Shown: piece after piece, positions 17,243-37,372 of the stretch | How positions within the stretch are numbered: the first letter of the stretch is position 1 | How the letters are laid out: each line of letters begins with the position of its first letter | NCBI GenBank assembly: GCA_029938235.1 | Contig: JAOZVH010000004.1 | Coordinates: 1-37,372, forward strand | DNA: 37,372 nucleotides | DNA from: Bacteroidales bacterium | GTDB taxonomy: Bacteria; Bacteroidota; Bacteroidia; Bacteroidales; 4572-128 | Reading direction: 5' to 3' | Notes under the pieces: generated by a model | What the model was told of the DNA's origin: nothing | The model's database searches: none | The model's input: the letters and a program-made list of their open reading frames with translations, nothing else | Made by a program: the position numbers and the translations under genes

Positions 17243-19495
17243 ATGAAAAAATACATTTTTTTATTATTTATTTTAATAAATACTTCTTGTTTTTCTCAGA
17301 ATGATGAATTAATTTTCACATTTAAAGGTCATTTTGAATATTTGCGCAGTGTATCTTTCAGTTCTAACAATAAATTTGTTGTCAGTGCGGCTGAGGATAA
17401 TACTATAAAAATTTGGGATATAGTTGAAAATCGTGAAGTTTATCCTTATAAAGAAGAAAATGACATTGTAAATTGTGCAGTATTTTCTCCGGACGATAAA
17501 TTTATTGCTACTGCTTCTAATAATAAAAATGTTACTTTATGGGAAGCTTTTGGGGATAAAAAAATTTCTGTTTTTAAAGGACATACAAAAAAAGTTTTAT
17601 CTGTATCTTTTTCTCCGGACGGTAAATTTCTTGTCAGTGCTTCTGCTGATAAAACTTTGAAAATCTGGGATATAGATAAAAAAAAACTTGTGAAAACTTT
17701 AAATGGACACAGCAAAATAGTAAATGATGCCACATTTAATTTGAGTGGAAAACAAATTTTAAGTGCTTCTTCTGATAATACTATAAAATTATGGGATGTA
17801 AAAACAGGTAAATTAATAGATACTTTTAAAGGACATTCGGAAGCAGTTTTATCTGTAAAATACAGTCCAAATGGAGAATATTTTGCAAGTTCTGGCAGAG
17901 ATAATAATATTATTTTATGGGATGCAAATAAAAATAAACCACTTAAAATTTTATCCGGTCATACAAATTATGTTAGAGAAGTTGTATTTAGTCCTTCCAG
18001 CGAATATCTTATAAGTGCTTCAAATGATAATTCTCTGAGGCTTTGGGAAGTTGAAACAGGAAAAAATATAAAATCTTTTAGAGGACATAAAAAATCTATT
18101 TCTTGTGTTGATTTTTCAAAAGATGGTAGAAGTATTGTCAGTGGTTCTAATGATTATCTTGTAAAATTATGGGATACTAAAGAATATCTTACAAAAGAAG
18201 GTAAAATTAGAGTTTTTGTAGAAAATAAAATAAATAAATGGCAAAAAAAAAGACCAAAAGAATTAGAAAAAACTTATAAAAGACGAGTGAATAAAAAAGA
18301 AAAAGAGAAAAAAATTATGTTCGCTATGAATGAAGCCATTTTGAAATTTGAAAATATTGCTTGGCAAAGTGCTATGAGAGATTATAATTTAGACCAGCAA
18401 TCTTTTAAAATTAAAATAGATAATTTTCAAGAAATTTATGTTCAAGTTCCACTTGAAGAAGCTGATGATTTTGATAATAATTTCAATATAGGTTTAAAAT
18501 ATTTAAAAGCTAAAATGGCAATAAAAGATTCTAGTTATGTTTTGTTGTATGTTGAAATAGAAAATCCAAAAAACAATAAAAAATATATTTATAAAAATAA
18601 AGAAAAATATAAATTAGACATAAATAAAATAGGTTTTCATTTTGAAAGTACGGAAAAAGAAAAATTGAAAAAGAAAAAAGAAATTCCGTATATTGAAATT
18701 GACATTCCTATAACAATGAAAAAAAATGATAATATTTTTGCATTAATAATTGGCAATGAAGATTATAATTCAGAAAAAGACACTGTCTTAAAAGATAAAA
18801 ATGTAGATCTTACTTTTGCAATAAATGACGCTAAAATTTTTAAAGAATATCTTGCGAAAACAATAGGCGTAAAAAAAAAAAATATTATTTATATAGAAAA
18901 TGCAAAAGAAAACGAAATGAAAGATGGAATTAAAAATCTTATAGAATTTATGAAAAAAAATGATTCTAAATATACTGAAGTAATTTTTTATTACTCTGGT
19001 CATATTTTACCTTTTACGCATCCACGAAAAAGATTTCCTTATTTAATGCCAACAAATATAAGCGAGAAAAATATAGAAAAAGCTATTAATTTAGAAGATA
19101 TTTATTACGAAATATCAAAAGAAAAATCTCATAAAACAACATTTTTTATAGATGCTTGTATGGGAATAAATGGCAGAGAAGAAAGTCTTTCGGAAAGCAA
19201 TTATAATGTAGAAACAAAATCAAATGCAATAAAAGGAAATATTATTAGTTTTATTGCTTGTGGAGATAAACAAAAAAATATTTATTGGAAAGAAAAAAAA
19301 CATTCTTTATTTACTTATTTTCTTTTAAAGAAATTAAAAGAAACCTCAGGAAATGTAAATTATTCTGATCTGAATAAATATCTTAGTAAACAAGTACGTT
19401 TAAAAGCATCTTCTTTAAAATCAAAAAAACAAAATACAAAATTAATGATAGGAGAAAAAGCAAAATATAGTTGGGAAAAATGGAACATGAAATGA
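17243..19495 (+). CDS. Exported WD40-repeat and caspase-like (peptidase C14) protein
   Basis: The 750-residue protein has a signal peptide (MKKYIFLLFILINTSCFSQ); a Cys lies near the cleavage site but is not in a good lipobox. Seven WD40 repeats cover about residues 28-315 (GH...WD pairs such as GHTKKVLSVSF and LWDVKTGKL), enough for one propeller. A charged middle domain (about 325-490) has WQKKRPKELEKTYKRRVNK and beta-rich segments. The C-terminal domain (about 497-745) is caspase-like: IFALIIGNEDYN, then the catalytic His587 in YYSGH and Cys639 in FIDACMG, both retained. The usual SGHG is SGHIL here. The family cleaves after basic residues in related orthocaspases; the substrate here is unknown. 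Location outside the cytoplasm is inferred from the signal peptide. It stands alone, flanked by the PstS-like gene (divergent) and array 2. Confidence 0.92.
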   Translation: MKKYIFLLFILINTSCFSQNDELIFTFKGHFEYLRSVSFSSNNKFVVSAAEDNTIKIWDIVENREVYPYKEENDIVNCAVFSPDDKFIATASNNKNVTLWEAFGDKKISVFKGHTKKVLSVSFSPDGKFLVSASADKTLKIWDIDKKKLVKTLNGHSKIVNDATFNLSGKQILSASSDNTIKLWDVKTGKLIDTFKGHSEAVLSVKYSPNGEYFASSGRDNNIILWDANKNKPLKILSGHTNYVREVVFSPSSEYLISASNDNSLRLWEVETGKNIKSFRGHKKSISCVDFSKDGRSIVSGSNDYLVKLWDTKEYLTKEGKIRVFVENKINKWQKKRPKELEKTYKRRVNKKEKEKKIMFAMNEAILKFENIAWQSAMRDYNLDQQSFKIKIDNFQEIYVQVPLEEADDFDNNFNIGLKYLKAKMAIKDSSYVLLYVEIENPKNNKKYIYKNKEKYKLDINKIGFHFESTEKEKLKKKKEIPYIEIDIPITMKKNDNIFALIIGNEDYNSEKDTVLKDKNVDLTFAINDAKIFKEYLAKTIGVKKKNIIYIENAKENEMKDGIKNLIEFMKKNDSKYTEVIFYYSGHILPFTHPRKRFPYLMPTNISEKNIEKAINLEDIYYEISKEKSHKTTFFIDACMGINGREESLSESNYNVETKSNAIKGNIISFIACGDKQKNIYWKEKKHSLFTYFLLKKLKETSGNVNYSDLNKYLSKQVRLKASSLKSKKQNTKLMIGEKAKYSWEKWNMK

Positions 19496-19559
19496 GGAAT
19501 TAAGAATTTTTAATGTAAATGAGGAATAATTTATTTTTTTAAATTTTTTATTTCCCATA

Positions 19560-19982
19560 AAAAATTGCCGTTTTTTGAAAAAAAAATTTTTTTAATTTCA
19601 AATTTAAAAATCATAAAATTTTGAACGATTTTTGAAAAAAAATTTTTTTTTAATTTCAAAATTAAAAATCATAAAATTTTGGACGATTTTTGAAAAAATT
19701 TTTTTAATTTCAAATTTAAAAATCATAAAATTTTAGACGATTTTTGAAAAAATTTTTTTAATTTCAAATTTAAAAATCATAAAATTTTGGACGATTTTGA
19801 AAAAAAAATTTTTTAATTTCAAATTTAAAAATCATAAAATTTTGGACGATTTTTGAAAAAATTTTTTTTAATTTCAAATTTAAAAATCATAAAATTTTGG
19901 ACGATTTTTGAAAATTTTTTTTTTAATTTTGAAATTAAAAATCATAAAATTTTGGACGATTTTTGAAAAAAATTTTTTTTAA
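19560..19982 (-). repeat. Tandem array of eight 54-58-bp AT-rich repeats (array 2, inverted)
   Basis: Seven units contain ATCATAAAATTTTGGACGAT (small variants), then TTTTGAAAA, a T-run and AATTTCAAATTTAAA. The ACGA core falls at 19625, 19683, 19737, 19791, 19846, 19901 and 19956 (spacings 58, 54, 54, 55, 55, 55), and a variant first unit starts with GCCG at 19567. Read in reverse complement the units have the same plan as array 1 (T-run, CAAAAATCGTCC, AAAATTTTA, TTTTTAAATT). The last T-run touches the stop of the binding-lipoprotein gene. The region 19496-19559 before it has only a duplicated AAATGAGGAAT. Confidence 0.92.
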
Positions 19983-21134
19983 TTATATTTTTTGGTAAAA
20001 ATATAATTCATGATTTTTTAAGATTTCCGGATGAAAAATTTTAATTAAATCTTTTAAAATTATATCTGGTTTTATCATTCCTGATTCCCAGTAATCATTT
20101 CCTCCGTTTGAAAATGAGCGTTTATTATTATTAAACATTTTATCATTTGAAAAAGCTTTAAAATGTCTTAATCTTTCATCTATTGCTATAACTTCTTCCA
20201 AACGTTTTGCCGAACCAATATTTATCCAAATATCTGAATTTCTTGCTTTTAAAAGAACATTTTCAAAATTTAATGGTATGCTATTTTTTTTATTACTATC
20301 TTTCCAAATATAATCTCCACCTGCATCTTCTATTAATTTTGCCATATAAGATTTTCCACCCGGCACATACCATAGATCTTTCCACAAAATATTTGTCATA
20401 ATTTTAGGTTTTATTTTAACATTTTTTATTAATTTTTTTAAATTATTATAATTTTTTACAACTTTATTAAATTTATCAATTACAAATTTTTCCTTATCAT
20501 AAAAAGCTGATAAAAATTTTATCCATTCCATCTTTCCCAATGGATGATTTTCTAAATATTCTCCATTCATTAGGACTTTTATGCCTAAGTTTTCTAACTT
20601 ATTTAAATTATTAGACGAATTTACATCGTAAGCAAGAACAAAATCACTTTTCATCTTTAAAATAAGTTCGTAGTTTAAATTTGCATCATAGCCAATTTCT
20701 TTAATTTTATTTTGTGAAATTGAATTTCTAACTTTGTTATTGCTGACAAATTTTGCTCCGGAAATTCCTATCACAGAATGAGTTTCGTTCATAAAATCTA
20801 AAAGAGAAATATGAGTTGTAGATAAACAAATTATGCGTTTTATAGGAATTTTTATAAAAGTAAATTTTTGTAAATATTTAGGAATTAAACTTTTATCTTT
20901 TCCAAGAACATAAGTGTAATTTTTTAAACGGTAAAATACTTGAACGATTTTATAATTTTCAAAATATTTTATATCAAAACCCTTAGCATATTTTATAGAA
21001 AAAGGTGGGTTTATTTCTTTATCTTTATTTTCAATAATTTCTTTTTTAATTTCATTTCTACAAGAAAACATTAAAAATATTAAAGAAAATAAGAAAAAAA
21101 ATTTTTTCGCTTTTTGATTTTTTAATTTTTTCAT
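19983..21134 (-). CDS. ABC-type metal/cobalamin-binding lipoprotein (BtuF/FecB type)
   Basis: The 383-residue protein has a long basic n-region and lipobox LMFSC (Cys25). The mature part fits the helical-backbone class III binding proteins (PF01497): IPIKRIICLSTTHISLLDFM, VIGISGAKFV, IKEIGYDANLNYELILKMKS with DFVLAYDV, then a linker, KIMTNILWKDLWYVPGGKSY, LIEDAGGDYIW, and NGGNDYWESGMIKPDIILKD with IKIFHPEIL. This set is typical of Bacteroidota iron-chelate or cobalamin uptake proteins. The usual neighbours, a BtuC/FecD permease, an ATPase and a TonB receptor, are absent. The substrate is not determinable from the sequence. It is 56 bases downstream of the histidine kinase gene on the same strand and could be cotranscribed with it. 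Confidence 0.88.
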   Translation of the reverse strand: MKKLKNQKAKKFFFLFSLIFLMFSCRNEIKKEIIENKDKEINPPFSIKYAKGFDIKYFENYKIVQVFYRLKNYTYVLGKDKSLIPKYLQKFTFIKIPIKRIICLSTTHISLLDFMNETHSVIGISGAKFVSNNKVRNSISQNKIKEIGYDANLNYELILKMKSDFVLAYDVNSSNNLNKLENLGIKVLMNGEYLENHPLGKMEWIKFLSAFYDKEKFVIDKFNKVVKNYNNLKKLIKNVKIKPKIMTNILWKDLWYVPGGKSYMAKLIEDAGGDYIWKDSNKKNSIPLNFENVLLKARNSDIWINIGSAKRLEEVIAIDERLRHFKAFSNDKMFNNNKRSFSNGGNDYWESGMIKPDIILKDLIKIFHPEILKNHELYFYQKI

Positions 21135-26170: not shown

Positions 26171-29100
26171 ATGTTTTTGTATTTTTCTTTTTTTTCAATA
26201 AATAAAAAAATACAAATAAAAGAAGATCAAGTAAATATTTTTGGTTTAGAAGAAAATTATTGTGAAAATTCCGAAAATGTAACTTTAATAGGAAATCCAG
26301 AAGGAGGAATTTTTGATGGTCCCGGAATATATGGAAATGAATTTAGACCAAATTCTTTAACAGCAGGAACTTATGAAATAAGTTACATTTTTGGTGAATT
26401 AAGTTATAGCAAAATTGTTACTATTAATACGGTTACAGAATTAAATTTTGAAAATTTAGAATTAGAAAACTTTTTTTGTCAGAATGATACAAATAATATC
26501 GTTTTAAAAGCAAATGTGCAAGGAGGAATTTTCTCTGGAGATGGTGTTCAAGACAGTATTTTTTCACCATTTTTGCTGGAAGCAGGAACGCAAACAATTC
26601 ATTATCAATATTATAATGAGTATAATTGTCTAAGTACAATAGAAAAAGAAATTGAAATAAAAGAAAAACCAAATTTAAGTTTTTCAAATTTAGAAAATAG
26701 ATATTGCAAAAATTCTGAGGATATAGTTTTATCTGCTAATCCAGAAAATGGAACTTTTTATGTCGAAAACATTATAAAAAATAATTTTGAAATTTCTAAT
26801 TTAGAAATTGGAAGTTATGCTATTTCTTATTTTTACAAGGATGAAAATAATTGTACCGATAGCATTTCAAAAAATGTTATAATTAATCCAATTCCTGAAT
26901 TAAATTTTAATTCTTTGGAAGCAGAATATTGTTATAATTCTCAGGACATAATTTTAAATGCAGAACCAGAAGGAGGAATTTTTGAAAATGAAGCAGTTGA
27001 TGGAAATATTTTTAATCCATCTTTACTTTCAAGTTCCGGAGAAACTAACATAGTTTATAATTTTACAGATGAAAATAATTGTCAAAATACAATTTCGCAA
27101 ACAATAAATATTCTCGATTTGCCAGAAATTAATTTCTCAGGTTTAGATGAAAATTATTGTAATAATGATAATTCTGGAAACATTTTAAATGGTGAACCTG
27201 CAGGAGGAGTTTTTTCTGGTTCTGGAATAATTGGAAATAAATTTTATCCAAAAAATCTTTCCGAAGGAACTTATGAAATTACATACAATTTTAGTGATGA
27301 AAATCTTTGTTACAACTCTGTAAAAAAAATTGTAAATATTTTTGGAGCTGGAGAAATTTCCATAGAAAATCTTGAAAATGAATATTGTATAAATTCTGAA
27401 AATGTAAATTTAGAAGTAAATATAAACGGAGGAATTTTTTCCGGCGACGGAATAACCGGAAGTATTTTTTCACCGAATGATGCTGGAGTTGGAGCAAAAA
27501 CTATAAATTACTCTGTGGAAGACGCTAATAATTGTCAATTGAATCATTCAAAAAATATTGTTATTTATGATTTGCCAGAAGTAACTATGCAATCTTTGAC
27601 AGAAAATTATTGTGTCAATTCAGATGATGTTGCTATAATTGTTTTTCCTGAGAATGGTGAATTTTCCGGAGATATAGAAATTTTAAACAACACTTTTTCG
27701 CCAAGTAATATTGTCGCAGGAAATTATGAAATTTCATATTCGTACACAAATGAAAAATCTTGTTCTAATACAATAACACAAAATATTTCCATTAATAATT
27801 TACCAATTTTAGATTTTGAAGGTTTGGAAAGTTCTTATTGTGGAAATGAAAATCCTGTAAATTTAACGCCAAATATTGAAGGAGGAATTTTTTCTGGAGT
27901 TGGAGTAAATTCTGCCAACGCAACTTTTAATCCAAACAATCTTATTCCAAATGAGTATGAAATTTATTATACATTTACAGATGAAAATTCCTGTACAAAT
28001 ATAGATACTCAGAAAGTAGAAATTCTTGGTCTTTATGATTTAGAGATTTTAAATCTATATGATTCTTATTGTTCTGATGCTTTGCCTATTTTGTTAGAAA
28101 CAAATTTGAACGGTGGAACTTTTACCGGAAATGGAATGGTTGGAAATCAATTTAGACCGTCAGATGCAGAATATGGAATTTTTGAAATTTCTTATCAATT
28201 TAGCGATGCAAATTTATGTGTCAGTGAAGTTAAAAAGATGGTTACTGTTTATTCTGCTCCGGAAGTTGATTTTGAAAATTTAGAGAGTGATTATTGTGAA
28301 AATTCTAATGTCGTAAATTTAGTTGGAATTCCTGAAAATGGAAGTTTCGAAGGAAATGGAATTGACGAAAAAGCATTTAATCCAGAAATTGCTGGTGAAG
28401 GTATTCATTCTATTTCTTATTCTTATACAGACGAAAATGGTTGTTATGCTTCAAAAATAAAAACCGCTATAGTTCATCCGATAGAAGATATTGATTTTAA
28501 CGGTATAGAGGAAGAATATTGTTTGAATACAGAAGATGCTATTTTAACTTCGGAAACAGAAAATGGAACTTTTTATGGTGATGGAATTTCTGGAAATTTA
28601 TTTAAGCCAAATTTGGCTGGAGTTGGAAATCACACGGTAACTTATTCTGTTACAGATGAATATCTTTGTACACATTCTAAAACTAAAAATCTTGTGGTTT
28701 ATGATTTGCCAAATGCAAATTTTATTAATTTTGACCAAACTTATTGTTTAACAAGTCCAGAAGTAATTTTACTTCCCGGTAATGAAAATGGCATTTTTTC
28801 CGGAGACGGAATAATTGAAAATGAGTTTAAATTTTCGCCAGAACTTGCTGGTCTTGGTGAGCATCAAATTACTTATACAGTAACTGACGAAAATAATTGT
28901 ACAAATACAGAAACAAAAAAAACTGATATTTTGGAAGTTCCTGAATTAGAAATTTTGGGTTTAGAAGACAATTATTGTATTGGAATTACAGAAATTGAAT
29001 TATCTGCAAATTTAGAAGGAGGAACTTTTTCTGGCGATGGAATAGTTGGAAATTATTTTTATCCAAATAATTTAGAAGTTGGAACTTATGAAGTTTTTTA

Positions 29101-32100
29101 TAATTTTAATAATTATTGTGATAATACCATCAGCAAAACTGTAAATATTCGTGGATTACCAGAATTAAATTTTGATGGTTTAGATGAAAATTATTGTCAT
29201 AATGCTGATTTTGTAAATCTTTCCTCAGAGCAAGAAAATGGTATTTTCTCTGGAAATGGAATAATAGAAAATAAATTTTTTCCACAAAATGCAGAAATTG
29301 GAGAAAATGAAATTACATATACTTACACAGACGAATTTAATTGTGAAAATTCAATTTCAAAAAGTGTAAATATTTATGAAATTGCGGAATTAGATTTTGA
29401 TGGTTTAGATGAAAATTATTGCATAAATTCTGTATTTGCTATTTTAACTCCAAATATTGAAGGGGGAAGTTTTTCCGAAAATATAGAAAATAATGAATTT
29501 AATTCTCAAAATTTAGGAGTTGGTACACATCAAATAACTTATTCTTTTACAGATTTAAATAATTGTTTTTTATCAAAAACGAAAAACGTTTCTGTAAATG
29601 ATATTCCAGAAATAAATATTTTAAATTTAGACGATGAATATTGTGAAAATTCTTTTTCTGTAAATTTAGAATCGTCGCCTGCAAATTGTAATTTTTCCGG
29701 AAACGGTGTAATTGATAATGTTTTTACACCGTCTTTAGCTTCGTATGGAATTAACACAATTATTGCAACTTTTACAGATGAAAAAAATTGTTCAAATTCC
29801 ATTTCAAAAGATGTTTCTATTTTTGATATGGAAGATTTAACTATAGAAAATCTCGAAAATGATTATTGCGAAGATGCAGAAAATGTTACTTTATCTGCAA
29901 ATATAGATGGAGGAACTTTTAGCGGAGCTGGTATAAATGAAAATATTTTTAGCATAAATAATTCTGGAATTGGTGAACATACAATTTATTATAATTACAC
30001 AGATTTAAATAATTGTACACAAATAATTTCTCAAAATGTTAATGTCCATCAAAATCCAGTTGTTGATTTTGGTTACACAACAAATATTTTTACAGATACG
30101 CCTGAAAATATTGTTTTAAATGCTGGTGCTGGATTTTCATCTTACGAATGGCAAGATGGCTCTAACGCACAAGCTTTTAATGTTCAAACTTGGGGAGATT
30201 ACAGTGTAGAAGTTACAGATGAAAATTCTTGTAAAAGTATCGCTGAGGTATCTATTTCTTTTAGTACTAATGATTTAGGAATAAAAAAAATCATTTCTCC
30301 TGTTTCAAAATGTGAACTTAGCGATAATGAAAATATTATTTTAGAAATAGAAAATTGCGGAGAAACTATTTTAGCAGGTGAAACTATCACCATAAATTAT
30401 AATATAGGTTCAACTCCTTTTGTTGAAGTAATTACATTAGAAGAAGATTTTCTTGCTTATACAAGTTTAATACATACTTTTTCACAAACAGCAGATTTTT
30501 CTAATTTTGAAAGTTATGATTTTGCGTTTTCTTTGGCAGGTGGAGATGGAAATTTTACTAATGATACAAAAAATGCTGTAATTAAAAATTTAAATTTTGT
30601 TGATTTAGCTTTAGATTTTGAAAATTTAGAAGACAATTATTGTATAAATTCTGAAAATTCTTTATTAACTACAAATGTAGAAGGTGGAATTTTTTCTGGA
30701 AATGGAATTAATGAAAATTATTTTTCTCCGGAATTAGCTGGTGAAGGAATTCATGAAATTAAATATACTTATATAAATGAAAATAATTGTGTTTCTGAAA
30801 TTACAAAAAATGTAGAGGTTTTTGATGTTCCAAATTTTGATTTTGAAATTAATGATTCATATTGTATGGGTTCAAATCCAGTGTTTTTAAATGCTTCTGT
30901 TGAAGGAGGTAATTTTTCTGGAAACGGAATTAATGGAATTAATTTTAATCCTAATGTTGCAGGAGTTGGAAGTCATAATATTTCTTATAATTACACAGAC
31001 GGAAATAGTTGTAATTATGAAATTACAAAATCAGTAAATATTTATGAGCCGCTTATTGCGAATATTAACGGTTTAAATGATGTTTATTGTAAAAATGGAG
31101 AAAGTTCAATTTTAATTGGTTTTCCAGAAAGTGGTTCTTTTTCAGGAACAGGAATTAGTGGAAGTGTTTTTAACCCTAATTTTGCAAATGACGGTGAAAA
31201 TACAATTTATTATAATGCTACAGATTTTAACGGTTGTGCTGTAAATACGACAAAAAATGTTTTTATTAATTCTTTAGAGGATTTAGATTTTGATTTAGAA
31301 GAAAATTATTGTATAAATTCAGAAAATATTTTATTAACACCAAATTTAGAAAATGGTATTTTTTCCGGAGAAGGAATTTTTGAAAATAATTTTTTCAATC
31401 CAAGTGTTTCTGGAATTGGTAATAATGCGATAACTTACACTTATAAAGATGAAAATAATTGTGTTTCTCAAATTACAAAAGAAACTAATATTTTAAGTGT
31501 TGGAGAGGTAGATTTTGACGGTTTAGAAAATGAATATTGTGTAAATTCCGAAGATCTTATTCTTTTACCAACCATTGAAAATGGTATTTTTTCCGGAGAA
31601 GGTATTGATGGAAATACTTTTTCGCCAGAAAATGCCGGAGAAGGTGCAAAAAACATAACTTATTCTGTTACTACAGAAAATAATTGTTTAATTTCTGTTA
31701 CAAAAAATGTAATTATTCACGGTTTACCGTCTTTAGAATTTAAAAATTTAGAAGATTTTTATTGTGTTTCTGAGCAAGGTTTTATTATGAATACAAATTA
31801 TACCGGAGGAATTTTTTCAGGAAACGATGGAATTGCTGGAAATGGATTTTTTCCACAAATTGCAGGTTCAGGAACTCATACTATAAATTATAATTTTACA
31901 GACGAAAATTCTTGTGAAAATACCATTTCAAAAGAAGTAGAAATTATAGAATTGCCTGATGCAAGTTTTACAGAATTAGAAGAAGAATATTGTTTAAATA
32001 CTCCAGATATAGATTTAGAAGCTTCAAATGAAGGAGGAATTTTTTCCGGAGATGGAATAATAGAAAATAAATTTTATCCGGAATTTGCAGGACTTGGAAC

Positions 32101-35100
32101 TCATATTTTAGAATATTCTTATACGGATGAAAATAATTGTAAAAATGATCTTTCACAAAATGTAACAATTAGAAATATTCCAAATGTAAAATTTAGAATG
32201 TTGGATAATAGTTTTTGTAAATCTGACGAAGCCATAGAATTGGAAGCAACTCCAACAGGTGGAACTTTCTCCGGAAATGGTGTTAATGGTGAATTTTTTG
32301 ACCCAAATGATGCTGGCGTAGGAACTCATAATATTGAATATAATTATGTAAATAATTTTAATTGCAGTAACACAGCTATAAAAAGTTTTACTATAAATGA
32401 TGTTCCAAGTTTAGATTTTCAAGGACTTGAAAATGAATATTGTCATAATTCTGACATTGTGAATTTAACACCAAATTTAACTGGTGGAATTTTTAGCGGA
32501 ATAGGAATTTATGAAAATACTTTTAATCCATCTTCATTAGAAACAGGAGTTTATAATATAAGTTACTCTTTGAATACAGAAAATAATTGTTATTCAAGTG
32601 TAGAAAAATCTGTTACTATTTTACCAATAATTGATGTAGATTTTACAAATTTAGATACTGACTTTTGTATAAATGAGACAAATATGACTTTGTCAGCAAA
32701 CGATGAAAATGCAACTTTTTCCGGAACAGCGGTTAATAAAAATATTTTTAATCCAAGTGTTGCAGGAATTGGGACGAATACAATAAATTTACATTTTACT
32801 GACGAAAATAATTGTAATATTGTAAAAAGCGAAATTGTAAATATACATTCTTTGCCGAATGTAGATTTTCAAAATTTAGAAAACGAATATTGTTTAAGTT
32901 CTGATACTGTACATTTACAAGGAAATTTTGAAAATGGAAATTTTTATTTTGATAATTCGGCTCTGGGAGATACTTTTTTTAGAATTGATAATTATAATGT
33001 TGGAAATCATCAAATAAAATTTTCTTATTTAGACGAATTTAATTGTTTTTCTTATAAAACTAAGGATTTTGTTATTGCTAATTTGCCACAAATAGAATTT
33101 GTAAATTTAGAAGAAGAATATTGTAAAAATTCTGAAGAAGTAATTTTACAATCAAATTTTCCAGAAAGTATTTTTTCCGGAGAAGGAGTTGTTGATGGAG
33201 TTTTTTATCCAAATCTTTTAGATGAAAATGTAGAAACTACAATTATTTACTGTTCATATACAGATGAAAAATCTTGTGTAAATTCTATAGAAAAAGAAAT
33301 TACAATAAATTATCCGACAGAAATAAGTTTTGAAAATTTAGAAAATTCCTATTGTTTAAATGATGAAATTGTAGTTTTAAATTCAGAATTTGAAAATTCT
33401 TATTTCTCTGGAAATGGAGTTATCGGAAACACTTTCAATCCAGAACTTGCTGCAGCAGGAGAGCATAATATTTATTTGCATTTTGTAAATGATAATAATT
33501 GTTTTTCTGATATTTCGCAAAGCGTAAATGTTTTAGAATTGCCGAATTTAAGTTTTGAAAATTTAGAAAATTCATATTGTAAAAATGACGAAAAAATTGC
33601 TTTGGAAGCAAATTTTGAAAATGCAATTTTTGAAATTCAAGCAGAAGAAAAAGATACTTTAGATATTCCAAACTTGGAAGTTGGAAGTTATAATATTATT
33701 TGTAATTATACAGATGAAAATTCTTGTTCAAATTCCATTTCAAAAAATGTAATTATAAATAACTTTCCTGACGCAAATTTTCAAGGTTTAGATACTGCAT
33801 ATTGTCAAAATTCTTTATTTTCTGTTTTACAAGCAAATGAAAATGGAGGAGAATTTAATGGTGATGGTCTAATTGAAAATATTTTTTATCCGAATTTATT
33901 AGATTCAGGAAATTATGAAATTTCTTATAATATAACTAATGAAAATAATTGTTCAAATTCTTTTACAAAACTTGTAAAAATTCATCATTTAGAGGAAATT
34001 ATTTTTTTAAATTTAGAAGAAAATTATTGTAAAAATGACATTGTAGTTTTAAAAGCTGCTCCTTCTGATGGATTTTTTGAGGGTTTTGGAATAGAAAGCG
34101 ATTCTATTTTTAAAGCTATTAGCTCTGGCGAACAAATTATTTTTTATAATTACACAGATACAAATAATTGTTTTCAGAAAGTTTCAAGAATTACAAATAT
34201 AAGGAATTTACCAATTATTGAATTTGATGAATTAGAAAAAAATTATTGTAAGAATGATATTTTAATTGCATTAAATGGAAATCAATTATCAGGTATTTTT
34301 TCCGGAGATGGGATAATAGGAAATAATTTAAATCCATCTTTGGCAGATGCTGGAGAAAATCAAATAACTTATTCATATACAGATAATAATAATTGTACAT
34401 CAGAAATATCGCAAAGTTTTAATATTAATCTTTTGCCTGATTTAAGTTTTGAAAATTTAGAAAATCATTATTGTAAAAAAGATGAAATTATAAATATACA
34501 AACATCTCCAACTTATGAAAATACTAATTTTTCTGGTGGAAATACAGATAAAGATGACGAGCTTTCATTAAATGAAATTGGAACTTTTATAATAAATGCA
34601 TCTTATACAGATGAAAATTTATGTGAAAATTCCATTTCACAAAATATAGAAATTCATGATTTACCAACCGTTTCTATTAATTTGGATTCTTTAGATTATT
34701 GCAAAGGTAATTCTTTACACCAATTAAGTGTTTCGCCAGAAGGAGGAACTTTTGAAGGAATGGAAGTTATAGATAATTCTTTCAGTATAGATAAATTGGA
34801 AAGTGGAAATTATAAAATTGTTTATGAGTTTACAGATGGATTTTCTTGTACTGCAAAAGACTCTGTAAATTTCGAAATTCATAGTTTACCGAGTGTAAGT
34901 TTTTCTGGAATAGATGAAGAATATTGTTTAAATAATGATACTGTTCATTTAACAGGAACTCCGGAAAATGGAATTTTCTCTAACTATACAGATACTTCAT
35001 TTTTTGTGCCGTCTATTTCCGGAGATTTTGAAATTAAATATGAGTTTGTGGACGAGTTTTTTTGCAAAAATTCGCAAACAAAAAACTTTACAGTTCATAA

Positions 35101-36763
35101 TTTACCAGATATTTCTTTCGAAGGTTTAGCGGAAAATTATTGTAAAAATAGTGAATTTGATATTTTAACAGCAAGTATTTCTTCGGCGACTTTCTCTGAA
35201 AATATAGAAAATGAAAATGAATTTCATCCGGAAAATGCTGATATTGGAGAAAATACGATTTTTTTAACTTACACAGACCAAAACCTTTGTACTGCTTTGG
35301 ATTCTCAAAAAACCATAGTTTATGAAATTCCAGAGATAACTTTTGAAATTGAAAATAATGTATTTTGTATAAATGATGCACAAATTTTTTTAGATGTAAA
35401 TCCATTAGGAGGAACTTTCGAAGGAAATGCTCTTACAAATAATTCATTTTTCCCATCTGAAGCAGGAGCAGGAACTCAGGAAATTATTTATACTTATACT
35501 GACGAAAATTTTTGTACAAATTTTGTTACGCAAGAAATAATTGTAAATCCTTTGACGGATTTGAGTTTTATAAATTTAGAAGAAAGATATTGTGAAGATT
35601 TTGGAGATATAGAATTGCAAGCATATCCAAGTGGTGGAAAATTTTATAAGAACAATTCTTTTGAAGATGAAATTGAGAATTTTGTATATGAATATCCGGG
35701 GGATTATATTATTACTTATAAACACACAGACGAAAATAGTTGTAAAAATAGCATTTCAAAAAATATCAGAATAATGCCTTTGCCAAATGTTGATATTTTA
35801 AATTTGGATAGTATTTTTTGTGTAAATTCTAATGATATTGAGATTTTGCCATTTCCATTTACAGCAAAACTTTTTTATAATAATGAAGAAATAAATGAAA
35901 ATATTTTTTCTCCGGAAGATTTTGGAGTGGGAAGTTTTGAAATTATTTGTAAATATGAAGACATAAACAATTGTAAAAATTCTAAAACGAAAATAATAAA
36001 AGTCAAAGACATTCCTGATGTGGAATTTTTATTAGATTCAGATACTTTATTATGTCAAAATAGTGATTCTATTTTATTAAAAGCCATTCCAAAAGGTGGA
36101 ACTTTTTCTGGACTTGGTGTTGAAAAAGACTCTTGTTTTTTTCCTGAAATTGCAAATATTGGAACTCATAAAATTAAATATGTTTTCACAGATACTACAG
36201 CTTCTGATAAAAAATGTTCAAATTTTGCGGAAATAAATTTAAAAGTAAATTCTTTACCAAATTTAGAATTTGAAAAAAGTATTATAGAAACAGATTTACC
36301 TTTGAATTTGTATAATACTTTGAATATTGAAAATACTGACACTGATACGAGTTTTTTTAATTTCATTTGGAATGATGGTATTATTGATTTATTAAATTAT
36401 GAAATTAAAAATTACGGTAATTATTCTTTAAAATTGGAAAATAGAGATACAAAATGTTCTATTTTTGAAAATATTTCTATTGAACGAAGTTCTAATTATG
36501 GAAGATTAGTAATTAATGCTTATCCAAATCCATCTTATTCTCGTGATAAGTTAATGATTTCTGTTGACCAACTTGAAGAAAAAGATGTTGTTATTGAACT
36601 TTTAACTTTTATTGGTCAAGTTTTATATCATAAAGAAATTAAAGATGTTTTATTTTTTGTTGATGAATTTGATATTTCTAATTTAGAAGAGGGAATTTAT
36701 TTTATTAGAGTAAATTACGGAGTTCAAGAAAACACAATTAAAAAAGTTGTAATTATGAAATAA
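26171..36763 (+). CDS. Giant T9SS-secreted surface protein with 42 Cys-paired Ig-like repeats
   Basis: This 3530-residue protein consists almost entirely of a module of about 72 residues repeated 42 times by my count. Each unit follows L-E-x-x-Y-C-x-N-S, then x-E-G-G-x-F-S-G-x-G-I, F-x-P, A-G-x-G-x-H-x-I-x-Y, then Y-T-D-E-N-N-C and a closing V-x-I strand. The two Cys per unit probably form a disulfide. Such GGxFSGxG...YTDxNxC modules are common in large Bacteroidota surface proteins. Units 1-17 and 18-42 are separated by an Ig-like and a CARDB-like segment (about 30053-30600); a second Ig-like domain ends the array (about 36250-36490). The last 85 residues are a type A T9SS sorting domain (YPNPS, FIGQVLYHKEI, LEEGIYFIRVNYG, KKVVIMK), so it crosses the outer membrane and is anchored or released. 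A role in adhesion is inferred. The first ATG is probably not the true start. Confidence 0.93.
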   Translation: MFLYFSFFSINKKIQIKEDQVNIFGLEENYCENSENVTLIGNPEGGIFDGPGIYGNEFRPNSLTAGTYEISYIFGELSYSKIVTINTVTELNFENLELENFFCQNDTNNIVLKANVQGGIFSGDGVQDSIFSPFLLEAGTQTIHYQYYNEYNCLSTIEKEIEIKEKPNLSFSNLENRYCKNSEDIVLSANPENGTFYVENIIKNNFEISNLEIGSYAISYFYKDENNCTDSISKNVIINPIPELNFNSLEAEYCYNSQDIILNAEPEGGIFENEAVDGNIFNPSLLSSSGETNIVYNFTDENNCQNTISQTINILDLPEINFSGLDENYCNNDNSGNILNGEPAGGVFSGSGIIGNKFYPKNLSEGTYEITYNFSDENLCYNSVKKIVNIFGAGEISIENLENEYCINSENVNLEVNINGGIFSGDGITGSIFSPNDAGVGAKTINYSVEDANNCQLNHSKNIVIYDLPEVTMQSLTENYCVNSDDVAIIVFPENGEFSGDIEILNNTFSPSNIVAGNYEISYSYTNEKSCSNTITQNISINNLPILDFEGLESSYCGNENPVNLTPNIEGGIFSGVGVNSANATFNPNNLIPNEYEIYYTFTDENSCTNIDTQKVEILGLYDLEILNLYDSYCSDALPILLETNLNGGTFTGNGMVGNQFRPSDAEYGIFEISYQFSDANLCVSEVKKMVTVYSAPEVDFENLESDYCENSNVVNLVGIPENGSFEGNGIDEKAFNPEIAGEGIHSISYSYTDENGCYASKIKTAIVHPIEDIDFNGIEEEYCLNTEDAILTSETENGTFYGDGISGNLFKPNLAGVGNHTVTYSVTDEYLCTHSKTKNLVVYDLPNANFINFDQTYCLTSPEVILLPGNENGIFSGDGIIENEFKFSPELAGLGEHQITYTVTDENNCTNTETKKTDILEVPELEILGLEDNYCIGITEIELSANLEGGTFSGDGIVGNYFYPNNLEVGTYEVFYNFNNYCDNTISKTVNIRGLPELNFDGLDENYCHNADFVNLSSEQENGIFSGNGIIENKFFPQNAEIGENEITYTYTDEFNCENSISKSVNIYEIAELDFDGLDENYCINSVFAILTPNIEGGSFSENIENNEFNSQNLGVGTHQITYSFTDLNNCFLSKTKNVSVNDIPEINILNLDDEYCENSFSVNLESSPANCNFSGNGVIDNVFTPSLASYGINTIIATFTDEKNCSNSISKDVSIFDMEDLTIENLENDYCEDAENVTLSANIDGGTFSGAGINENIFSINNSGIGEHTIYYNYTDLNNCTQIISQNVNVHQNPVVDFGYTTNIFTDTPENIVLNAGAGFSSYEWQDGSNAQAFNVQTWGDYSVEVTDENSCKSIAEVSISFSTNDLGIKKIISPVSKCELSDNENIILEIENCGETILAGETITINYNIGSTPFVEVITLEEDFLAYTSLIHTFSQTADFSNFESYDFAFSLAGGDGNFTNDTKNAVIKNLNFVDLALDFENLEDNYCINSENSLLTTNVEGGIFSGNGINENYFSPELAGEGIHEIKYTYINENNCVSEITKNVEVFDVPNFDFEINDSYCMGSNPVFLNASVEGGNFSGNGINGINFNPNVAGVGSHNISYNYTDGNSCNYEITKSVNIYEPLIANINGLNDVYCKNGESSILIGFPESGSFSGTGISGSVFNPNFANDGENTIYYNATDFNGCAVNTTKNVFINSLEDLDFDLEENYCINSENILLTPNLENGIFSGEGIFENNFFNPSVSGIGNNAITYTYKDENNCVSQITKETNILSVGEVDFDGLENEYCVNSEDLILLPTIENGIFSGEGIDGNTFSPENAGEGAKNITYSVTTENNCLISVTKNVIIHGLPSLEFKNLEDFYCVSEQGFIMNTNYTGGIFSGNDGIAGNGFFPQIAGSGTHTINYNFTDENSCENTISKEVEIIELPDASFTELEEEYCLNTPDIDLEASNEGGIFSGDGIIENKFYPEFAGLGTHILEYSYTDENNCKNDLSQNVTIRNIPNVKFRMLDNSFCKSDEAIELEATPTGGTFSGNGVNGEFFDPNDAGVGTHNIEYNYVNNFNCSNTAIKSFTINDVPSLDFQGLENEYCHNSDIVNLTPNLTGGIFSGIGIYENTFNPSSLETGVYNISYSLNTENNCYSSVEKSVTILPIIDVDFTNLDTDFCINETNMTLSANDENATFSGTAVNKNIFNPSVAGIGTNTINLHFTDENNCNIVKSEIVNIHSLPNVDFQNLENEYCLSSDTVHLQGNFENGNFYFDNSALGDTFFRIDNYNVGNHQIKFSYLDEFNCFSYKTKDFVIANLPQIEFVNLEEEYCKNSEEVILQSNFPESIFSGEGVVDGVFYPNLLDENVETTIIYCSYTDEKSCVNSIEKEITINYPTEISFENLENSYCLNDEIVVLNSEFENSYFSGNGVIGNTFNPELAAAGEHNIYLHFVNDNNCFSDISQSVNVLELPNLSFENLENSYCKNDEKIALEANFENAIFEIQAEEKDTLDIPNLEVGSYNIICNYTDENSCSNSISKNVIINNFPDANFQGLDTAYCQNSLFSVLQANENGGEFNGDGLIENIFYPNLLDSGNYEISYNITNENNCSNSFTKLVKIHHLEEIIFLNLEENYCKNDIVVLKAAPSDGFFEGFGIESDSIFKAISSGEQIIFYNYTDTNNCFQKVSRITNIRNLPIIEFDELEKNYCKNDILIALNGNQLSGIFSGDGIIGNNLNPSLADAGENQITYSYTDNNNCTSEISQSFNINLLPDLSFENLENHYCKKDEIINIQTSPTYENTNFSGGNTDKDDELSLNEIGTFIINASYTDENLCENSISQNIEIHDLPTVSINLDSLDYCKGNSLHQLSVSPEGGTFEGMEVIDNSFSIDKLESGNYKIVYEFTDGFSCTAKDSVNFEIHSLPSVSFSGIDEEYCLNNDTVHLTGTPENGIFSNYTDTSFFVPSISGDFEIKYEFVDEFFCKNSQTKNFTVHNLPDISFEGLAENYCKNSEFDILTASISSATFSENIENENEFHPENADIGENTIFLTYTDQNLCTALDSQKTIVYEIPEITFEIENNVFCINDAQIFLDVNPLGGTFEGNALTNNSFFPSEAGAGTQEIIYTYTDENFCTNFVTQEIIVNPLTDLSFINLEERYCEDFGDIELQAYPSGGKFYKNNSFEDEIENFVYEYPGDYIITYKHTDENSCKNSISKNIRIMPLPNVDILNLDSIFCVNSNDIEILPFPFTAKLFYNNEEINENIFSPEDFGVGSFEIICKYEDINNCKNSKTKIIKVKDIPDVEFLLDSDTLLCQNSDSILLKAIPKGGTFSGLGVEKDSCFFPEIANIGTHKIKYVFTDTTASDKKCSNFAEINLKVNSLPNLEFEKSIIETDLPLNLYNTLNIENTDTDTSFFNFIWNDGIIDLLNYEIKNYGNYSLKLENRDTKCSIFENISIERSSNYGRLVINAYPNPSYSRDKLMISVDQLEEKDVVIELLTFIGQVLYHKEIKDVLFFVDEFDISNLEEGIYFIRVNYGVQENTIKKVVIMK
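26236..30052 (+). repeat. First block of 17 coding repeats in the giant protein
   Basis: Seventeen units of roughly 210-225 bases, each recognisable by the Y-C codon pair at its start and AATAATTGT-type N-N-C codons near its end. Units differ from each other by many substitutions, so the duplication is old apart from short shared phrases such as GGAGGAATTTTTTCCGGAGA. Confidence 0.85.
30053..30600 (+). other. Ig-like plus CARDB-like insert inside the repeat array
   Basis: The coding repeat is interrupted by NPVVDFGYTTNIFTD, SSYEWQDGSN, WGDYSVEVTDENSC (an Ig-like unit), then NDLGIKKIISPVSKCELSDN, IENCGETILAGETITINYN and FTNDTKNAVIKNL (CARDB-like). The same Ig-like pattern (FIWNDGI...NYGNYSLKLENRDTKC) returns just before the sorting domain. 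Confidence 0.7.
30601..36252 (+). repeat. Second block of 25 coding repeats in the giant protein
   Basis: Twenty-five more units of the same module (units 18-42), beginning LEDNYCINSENS and ending with a variant LLCQNSDSILLKA. Several late units are irregular: some lack the FSGxG core (for example units 31, 36 and 41), which suggests drift toward the C-terminus. Confidence 0.85.
36510..36763 (+). other. Type IX secretion C-terminal sorting domain (coding segment)
   Basis: This encodes the final ~85 residues with INAYPNPSYSRDKLMISVD, VIELLTFIGQVLYHKEI, FDISNLEEGIYFIRVNY and KKVVIMK. The order YPNP, G..v, L..GiYfirv, kk.vi.K is that of the type A (TIGR04183) sorting signal recognised by the T9SS. 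Confidence 0.92.
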
Positions 36764-36817: not shown

Positions 36818-37105
36818 CAAAAAACTCCCAAAATTTCAACAATTTATTCGAAAAAAATTTTTCAAAATTCACCCCAAAATTTCAACATTTTTTAATTTAA
36901 AAGAATAAAAAAAAAATTTTTTCAAAAATCGTCCAAAATTTCAATATTTTTTAAATTGAAAATAAAAAAATTTTTTTCAAAAAACGTCCAAAATTTTAAT
37001 GTTTTTAAAAAAACAACATTGGAGGTTTTTTTTTAACCTCCAATGTTTCGACATCAAAAATCGTCCAAAATTTCAATATTTTTTAATTTAAAAGAATAAA
37101 AAAAA
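36810..37105 (+). repeat. AT-rich repeat array (array 4) interrupted by a hairpin
   Basis: Five copies of the intergenic repeat in the same orientation as array 1: T-run, CAAAAATCGTCC, AAAATTTCAATATTTT, then TAATTTAAAAGAATAAAA in two of them. The marker C is at 36818, 36863, 36923, 36978 and 37055. The last interval is longer because the hairpin at 37015-37047 sits between the A-run of unit 4 and the CAAAAA of unit 5. Confidence 0.8.
37015..37047. terminator. Perfect 13-bp stem-loop inside array 4
   Basis: AACATTGGAGGTT (37015-37027) and AACCTCCAATGTT (37035-37047) are exact inverse complements with a T7 loop. It has five G:C pairs, far stronger than the A/T stems around it. It could terminate transcription from either side, but flanking U-runs are short, so another structural role is possible. 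Confidence 0.6.
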
Positions 37106-37110
37106 CATCC

Positions 37111-37220
37111 ATATGCGTCAAGCGTCCACGATGATTTGGTATTCCACGTGTCAAGCGTGGACGCTTGACGCATAATAGGTAAGATACTTCCGTGTCAAGC
37201 GACACGCTTGACGCATAAGG
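37111..37220. repeat. G+C-rich mosaic palindromic element (BIME-like)
   Basis: By direct count 54 of 110 bases are G or C, against well under 30% elsewhere. The octamer GTCAAGCG occurs forward at 37117, 37150 and 37194 and reversed (CGCTTGAC) at 37162 and 37205. The outer stem TATGCGTCAAGCGTCCACG (37112-37130) pairs perfectly with 37156-37174. Two inner hairpins are 37150-37169 and 37194-37212, each followed by GCATAA. This alternating small-palindrome layout resembles REP/BIME elements or a MITE. Confidence 0.8.
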
Positions 37221-37251
37221 TTCTTGGGAGATAATGATAATGCAATGCAAT

Positions 37252-37314
37252 AATTCTTCCATTATTTGCCAATTTTATAATAATGGAAGAATTTTAAAAA
37301 ATTCTTCCATTATT
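37252..37314. terminator. Three-part inverted repeat forming two exclusive hairpins
   Basis: AATTCTTCCATTAT occurs at 37252-37265 and 37300-37313, and its inverse ATAATGGAAGAATT at 37280-37293. The middle copy can pair with either side; the right-hand stem is 17 bp (37279-37295 with 37298-37314). It may be a terminator for a minus-strand gene entering from the right edge, or an attenuator-like switch. Confidence 0.5.
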
Positions 37315-37372
37315 ATTATCTGAAACTTTCAAATCTACATTAAAATGACATTCCCAATGGTCAATACGTGGG
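37294..37372 (-). CDS. Possible C-terminal end of a gene entering from the right edge
   Basis: One minus-strand frame is open from the edge for 25 codons (RIDHWECHFNVDLKVSD, then NNNGRIF) and stops at 37294, with the hairpin set overlapping and following its end. The residue mix looks protein-like, but the piece is too short to identify, and its last codons lie inside an inverted repeat. Treat as tentative. Confidence 0.25.
   Translation of the reverse strand, partial: PRIDHWECHFNVDLKVSDNNNGRIF

Follow-up and report, generated by a model that had tools for sequence, protein, structure and literature searches.

The window analysed here, a stretch of 37,372 nucleotides, is contig C54 of a Bacteroidales MAG (3.36 Mb, 328 contigs, 92% complete). 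A compact repeat element is located near its right end, 152 bp from the end of the contig; on its other side, a 3530-aa ORF (26171-36763) terminates in a type IX secretion (T9SS) sorting domain (TIGR04183). The patch 37111-37220 contains G or C at 54 of its 110 bases (about 49%, as the initial annotation had counted), while the window mean is 23.9%. The patch had also been placed in an A/T-only surrounding; the window is indeed low in G+C, but the wording is a little too strong, the richest other 110-mer before 36900 reaching 43.6%.

The palindromic layout described earlier for this patch was reproduced in full. Five octamers occur in alternating orientation, three as GTCAAGCG (37117, 37150 and 37194) and two as the reverse, CGCTTGAC (37162 and 37205), and a perfect 19-bp outer stem (100% complementary) joins a left arm on the plus strand, TATGCGTCAAGCGTCCACG (37112-37130), which contains the 5' tag TATG, to a right arm on the minus strand, CGTGGACGCTTGACGCATA (37156-37174). 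Two inner hairpins, GTCAAGCG[TGGA]CGCTTGAC (37150-37169) and GTGTCAAGCG[ACA]CGCTTGAC (37192-37212), lie about 43 bp apart, and GCATAA follows both of them. When one mismatch was allowed, GCGTCAAGCG was found 5 times in the window against 0.06 expected, a count reached by none of 100 shuffles. The DNA fold of the patch has a z-score of -8.5, with none of 200 shuffles equally stable, and its RNA fold is likewise strong (z = -8.6).

Overall, 37109-37220 contains three stem-loops. Two of them, about 33 bp apart, are inverted relative to each other and carry their tags on the outside; the third belongs to a related subfamily. The first two form a REPIN-like inverted doublet of about 70 bp at 37109-37178, CCATATGC-GTCAAGCG[TCCA]CG ... 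GTCAAGCG[TGGA]CGCTTGAC-GCATAATAG, which is assigned to neither strand and was delimited by its copies and the conservation of their ends. Its intact REP-like hairpin (37150-37169) is read on the minus strand, where the loop is TCCA and the tag lies at 37170-37174. The first hairpin of the doublets in this genome is often imperfect, with CGATGAT in place of CGCTTGAC, and the window doublet is one such case. The third stem-loop, GTGTCAAGCG[ACA]CGCTTGACGCATAAGG (37192-37220, minus strand), represents a triloop subfamily with relatives carrying AGA/TCT loops on C6, C209 and C214, and has arms in common with the main hairpin family.

A genome-wide search for the hairpin, which the initial annotation had called for, revealed a multi-copy family with variants and not the single invariant copy that would have spoken against a mobile family. 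CGCTTGACGCATAA, with at most one mismatch, matched 70 sites in the MAG (reversed control, 0), and the core AAGCGTCCACGCTT matched 47 (control, 0); about 60 hairpin clusters were read in their context. The 70-bp unit has about a dozen further copies at 84-96% identity, and near-identical doublets of 61-64 bp occur in unrelated surroundings on C17, C33, C40, C54, C55, C296, C310 and C312. Inverted doublets of the unit number 18, again with unrelated flanks, and comparison of the bases flanking all copies indicates that conservation starts roughly at (C)CC[AT]TATGCG. Coding sequence makes up 78% of the total, yet 61 of 63 clusters lie outside ORFs; around the 26 clusters with a gene on both sides, gene orientation is convergent in 10, tandem in 15 and divergent in 1. 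Moreover, 35 clusters are near contig ends, and many of these contigs stop inside an adjoining insertion sequence (IS). No clear target duplication was seen at the 18 doublets, where direct repeats in the flanks have a mean length of 1.8 against 1.4 after shuffling, a value reached by 9% of the shuffles. A search of the element against Rfam gave sub-threshold chance matches only, plasmid and phage records gave no match, and viral contigs gave 0 matches to TATGN4AAGCGTCCACGCTT.

In the family unit, a 5' tag (TATG) precedes a stem of about 9 bp, whose closing pairs are AGCG/CGCT, and the loop is TCCA. The spacing between the tag (TATG or GTTA) and the stem on its 3' side is usually constant: ATG is at one fixed offset in 13 of 13 hairpins in genome G068, 5/5 in G462, 6/8 in G071 and 11/12 in the window's own genome, and the equivalent place is taken by GTTN in G053 and mostly by GTTA in G095. 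In G551 the stem arm is shorter by one base. Of 76 distinct hairpins, 71 are paired at stem position 6 and 68 at position 7 (shuffle maxima, 42 and 30); this set was preselected for AGCG[TCCA]CGCT, most members also having AAGCG[TCCA]CGCTT. Both positions use all four Watson-Crick pair types; the changes are compensatory and pairing has been kept. The 13 distinct hairpins of G068 illustrate this freedom, with 12 different 5-base arms around a constant ATG tag and loop. Such an anatomy is that of a REP, and we infer that the unit is read by its tag, structure and loop.

We also looked for the family in related genomes, mostly draft assemblies whose copies were sampled partly through the core that defines them. 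Among 40 relatives searched with GCGTCAAGCGTCCACG, only the sister species G001 was positive, with at least 11 sites, and the other 39 had none. The core AAGCGTCCACGCTT is abundant in six genomes (G053, G068, G071, G095, G462 and G551; 10-60 sites each, control 0) from four families of the order other than the window's own; most of the order's 295 genomes have few sites or none. The copies read in the genomes carrying the core have one architecture, the tag being followed by a stem of 7-12 bp and then the TCCA loop, and hairpin pairs stand about 36 nt apart in G462 and G071. At one locus of G071 (C69, 1600-1760), a longer inverted repeat, TGGCTACCCACGTAA, encloses two core hairpins, which, judging from this arrangement, look as if they were carried within another small mobile element.

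The comparison with the sister species bears on the window element itself. Positions 17467-20000 of G001 contig C32 are 97.5% identical to 34072-36605 of C54, just upstream of the element; the window has two exact copies of GCGTCAAGCGTCCACG, and none was found on C32 within one mismatch. Two further copies, at the C227 and C296 junctions, lie against sequence that runs on uninterrupted in G001; the left junction on C296, read by eye and on the left side only, is AATTCAC joined to (A)CCATATG. These cases are presence/absence differences of the hairpin between the two species, for which loss in G001 may also account. The examination of related genomes yielded copies and variants, in G001 and the six others; no empty counterpart of a doublet with both flanks was recovered between the window's genome and its sister.

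The initial annotation had pointed to mobilisation by a RAYT-type transposase, in which case these hairpins would be a REP family proper, served by a dedicated REP-associated tyrosine transposase gene that is missing from this MAG. The anatomy (tag, hairpin, inverted doublets) fits, a Bacteroidetes subclass of TnpA-REP with atypical, non-GTAG structures is known (PMC6006769), and the order has Y1 genes with hairpins of their own. However, the only Y1 match in the window's genome (C203, 4307-5000) is out of frame, with stops, and this remnant is directly preceded by a palindrome with 35-bp arms on AACTTTGCCAAAGTT, of another kind than the hairpin family. The core is absent from all 31 Y1 loci searched up to 1.5 kb on each side, the remnant included, and no intact Y1 gene was found in the two species G001 and G000 (the window's own) together. 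Y1 genes of related genomes often adjoin hairpins, but of other sequence; the one on C632 of G462 scores with the IS200/IS605 model and also, under the cut-off, with the REP-associated transposase model. Thus, no dedicated transposase was seen for the hairpins, the own Y1 being broken and those of the order having other hairpins or none, and at none of the 31 loci does this REP flank a Y1 gene in the arrangement of a REPtron, a result that is not final given that the MAGs are incomplete. As tested, the RAYT association is not supported, and we regard a RAYT family with a missing gene as unlikely.

At three loci of G462 and G003 (L346, L365 and L369), Y1 genes are flanked by hairpins of their own, such as CCCCGACA[TGAA]TGTCGGGG or CCGTCCCA[TGAA]TGGGACGG; these are candidate REPtrons of the order, with tags other than GTAG.

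A second possibility, small MITEs, had also been raised by the initial annotation and was the one we favoured initially, as 20 bp are common to IS ends and hairpins. Here, the hairpins would be non-autonomous derivatives of an IS4-type (DDE) element, with which they would have the terminal inverted repeat in common and whose transposase would move them. A transposon with IS4-like protein remnants has CATAGCCGTCAGTCTAAG... as its terminal repeat, and many contigs end in this sequence; terminal inverted repeats were seen on the element. Its ends read GCGTCCACGC joined to CATAGCCGTCAG at many places, and outside nearly every end stands the hairpin core GCGTCCACGC or a variant. A 310-bp IS-like element on C85, with both ends present, indicates that some short IS derivatives with hairpin-like ends do exist; its two flanking cores are inverted, not direct.

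Against a MITE origin, the hairpin that adjoins the IS on C75 is undisturbed in G001 up to the very point at which the IS starts, the sequence outside the core varies between IS copies, the variant core GCGTAGACGC at the IS on C238 agrees with that of its own doublet, and a single 10-bp core serves two IS ends on C224. Because of these four observations, we consider that the IS4-type element inserts into pre-existing hairpins and is not their parent; it was after the C75 comparison and the varied outer bases that the MITE explanation was dropped. The compensated variation of stems across genomes and the lack of a fixed-length target duplication at the 18 doublets also speak against it, and we now judge it improbable.

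Judging from its junctions, the IS4-type element uses the hairpin core as a landing site. In the window's genome, IS left ends with an intact core carry TCCA and right ends are of the TGGA type in 7 of 8 cases, as a 10-bp direct repeat would require; the few IS ends of G001 do not fit a 10-bp direct duplication of the core, and no IS4-type copy with both ends on one contig was found. All the transposase pieces seen are decayed. A related fragment in G071 matched NF033592 over its fragment (E = 2e-17), the window genome's own fragments, too short or decayed, gave no family match by themselves, and no full-length IS4 transposase (PF01609, NF033592) was found in this genome or its sister. The sole full-length match in G071, on C206, is a different IS with other ends. 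A class-wide search with a composite IS fragment (E <= 1e-20) found nothing, which shows little.

Just as improbable is a role as functional RNA hairpins, selected at gene ends as mRNA 3'-end stabilisers or terminators and not mobile, since the skew towards the 3' ends of genes (10 convergent sites, 1 divergent), the covarying stems and the strong RNA fold are outweighed by the lack of a U-tract, by a terminator scan that misses the hairpins, by near-identical 61-64-bp doublets with unrelated flanks in one genome, which argue for copying, by the failure to find them on the sister's orthologous contig C32, and by the fact that termination needs no strand-specific loop and tag.

On balance, we therefore favour the reading that 37109-37220 is a REP-like (REPIN/BIME-type) repeat, spread by a trans-acting enzyme of the HUH/Y1 kind, on which the IS4-type element landed later. 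The BIME-like character proposed initially is borne out by short intergenic palindromes dispersed in many copies and variants per genome, their inverted doublets, the conserved loop and 5' tag, the covarying stems and the presence/absence differences with the sister species. We class the family as REP-like and do not count it among the RAYT systems. Its units would have moved in the form of single-stranded hairpins, with a structure-reading enzyme cutting and joining them in trans; this is suggested by the tag at the stem foot, the absence of a detected target duplication and the lack of an associated transposase acting on terminal inverted repeats. Such an enzyme is the likeliest mechanism, though unproven; this genome may since have lost it, or it may be unsampled or have escaped recognition here. 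At a later stage, the IS4-type element would have settled and multiplied at the hairpins, which offered it safe places between genes; breaks in the assembly at hairpin sites agree with this. More tentatively, the family may be part of a tag-and-loop REP superfamily of this order, spread by a structure-reading enzyme that is no known RAYT and that recognises nothing but the tag, the AGCG/CGCT closing pairs and the TCCA loop, the remaining stem being free to vary; this we see as possible but rather doubtful.

The REP-like family shares with the REPs, BIMEs and REPINs of RAYT/TnpA-REP systems (PMC3116915, PMC2817692, PMC6006769) its intergenic stem-loops in tens of copies and several subfamilies, the 5' tag at the stem foot, the strand-specific loop and the inverted doublets. 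It differs from REPs with RAYTs in its fixed-position tag, which is TATG or GTTA where those have GT[AG]G, in the lack of a RAYT beside any copy examined, and in stems that vary widely within one genome, as in G068. CGTC-tagged REPs, reported from Bacteroidetes among other phyla without a dedicated transposase and with 8-9-bp stems and 4-5-base loops (PMC3733652), resemble it in host, in the missing transposase and in comparable stem and loop sizes, but have a CGTC tag and a CCA tail, whereas the tag and tail here differ; CGTC does stand beside the stem in the window genome's own copies and is not kept in G068, G071 or G053. The family was not found described in the literature searched, and in the open literature the exact core gave no match whose title or abstract concerned a repeat family. 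These findings add an order of Bacteroidota to the range of tagged REP elements, with a tag, a loop and a stem behaviour that would go unnoticed in surveys based on GTAG or CGTC tags. Moreover, the varying stem and constant tag and loop of G068 offer a direct way to ask which feature of a REP its mobiliser reads, for REPs without a RAYT.

The family is also an example in which an IS4-type element homes to REPs. ISs that target REPs are known, such as ISRm22 (IS4 family) of Sinorhizobium meliloti, which inserts at the axis of REP palindromes (PMC1525189). The IS4-type element described here is similar in this respect, and differs from ISRm22, with its 6-bp repeats, in its Bacteroidota host, its 10-bp flanking core and its decayed transposase pieces.

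Other repeats occur in the window. Right after the element, at 37249-37316, AATTCTTCCATTATT is present in three copies that are complementary to one another. Another repeat, A/T-rich and about 55 bp long (AAAATTTTGGACGNTTTTTGAAAAAA...), forms short tandem arrays between genes at 2412-2759, 19580-19984 and 36851-37090; its segment AAAATTTTGGACG occurs 11 times in the window against 0.5 expected, and the repeat has many sites in both species of the genus.
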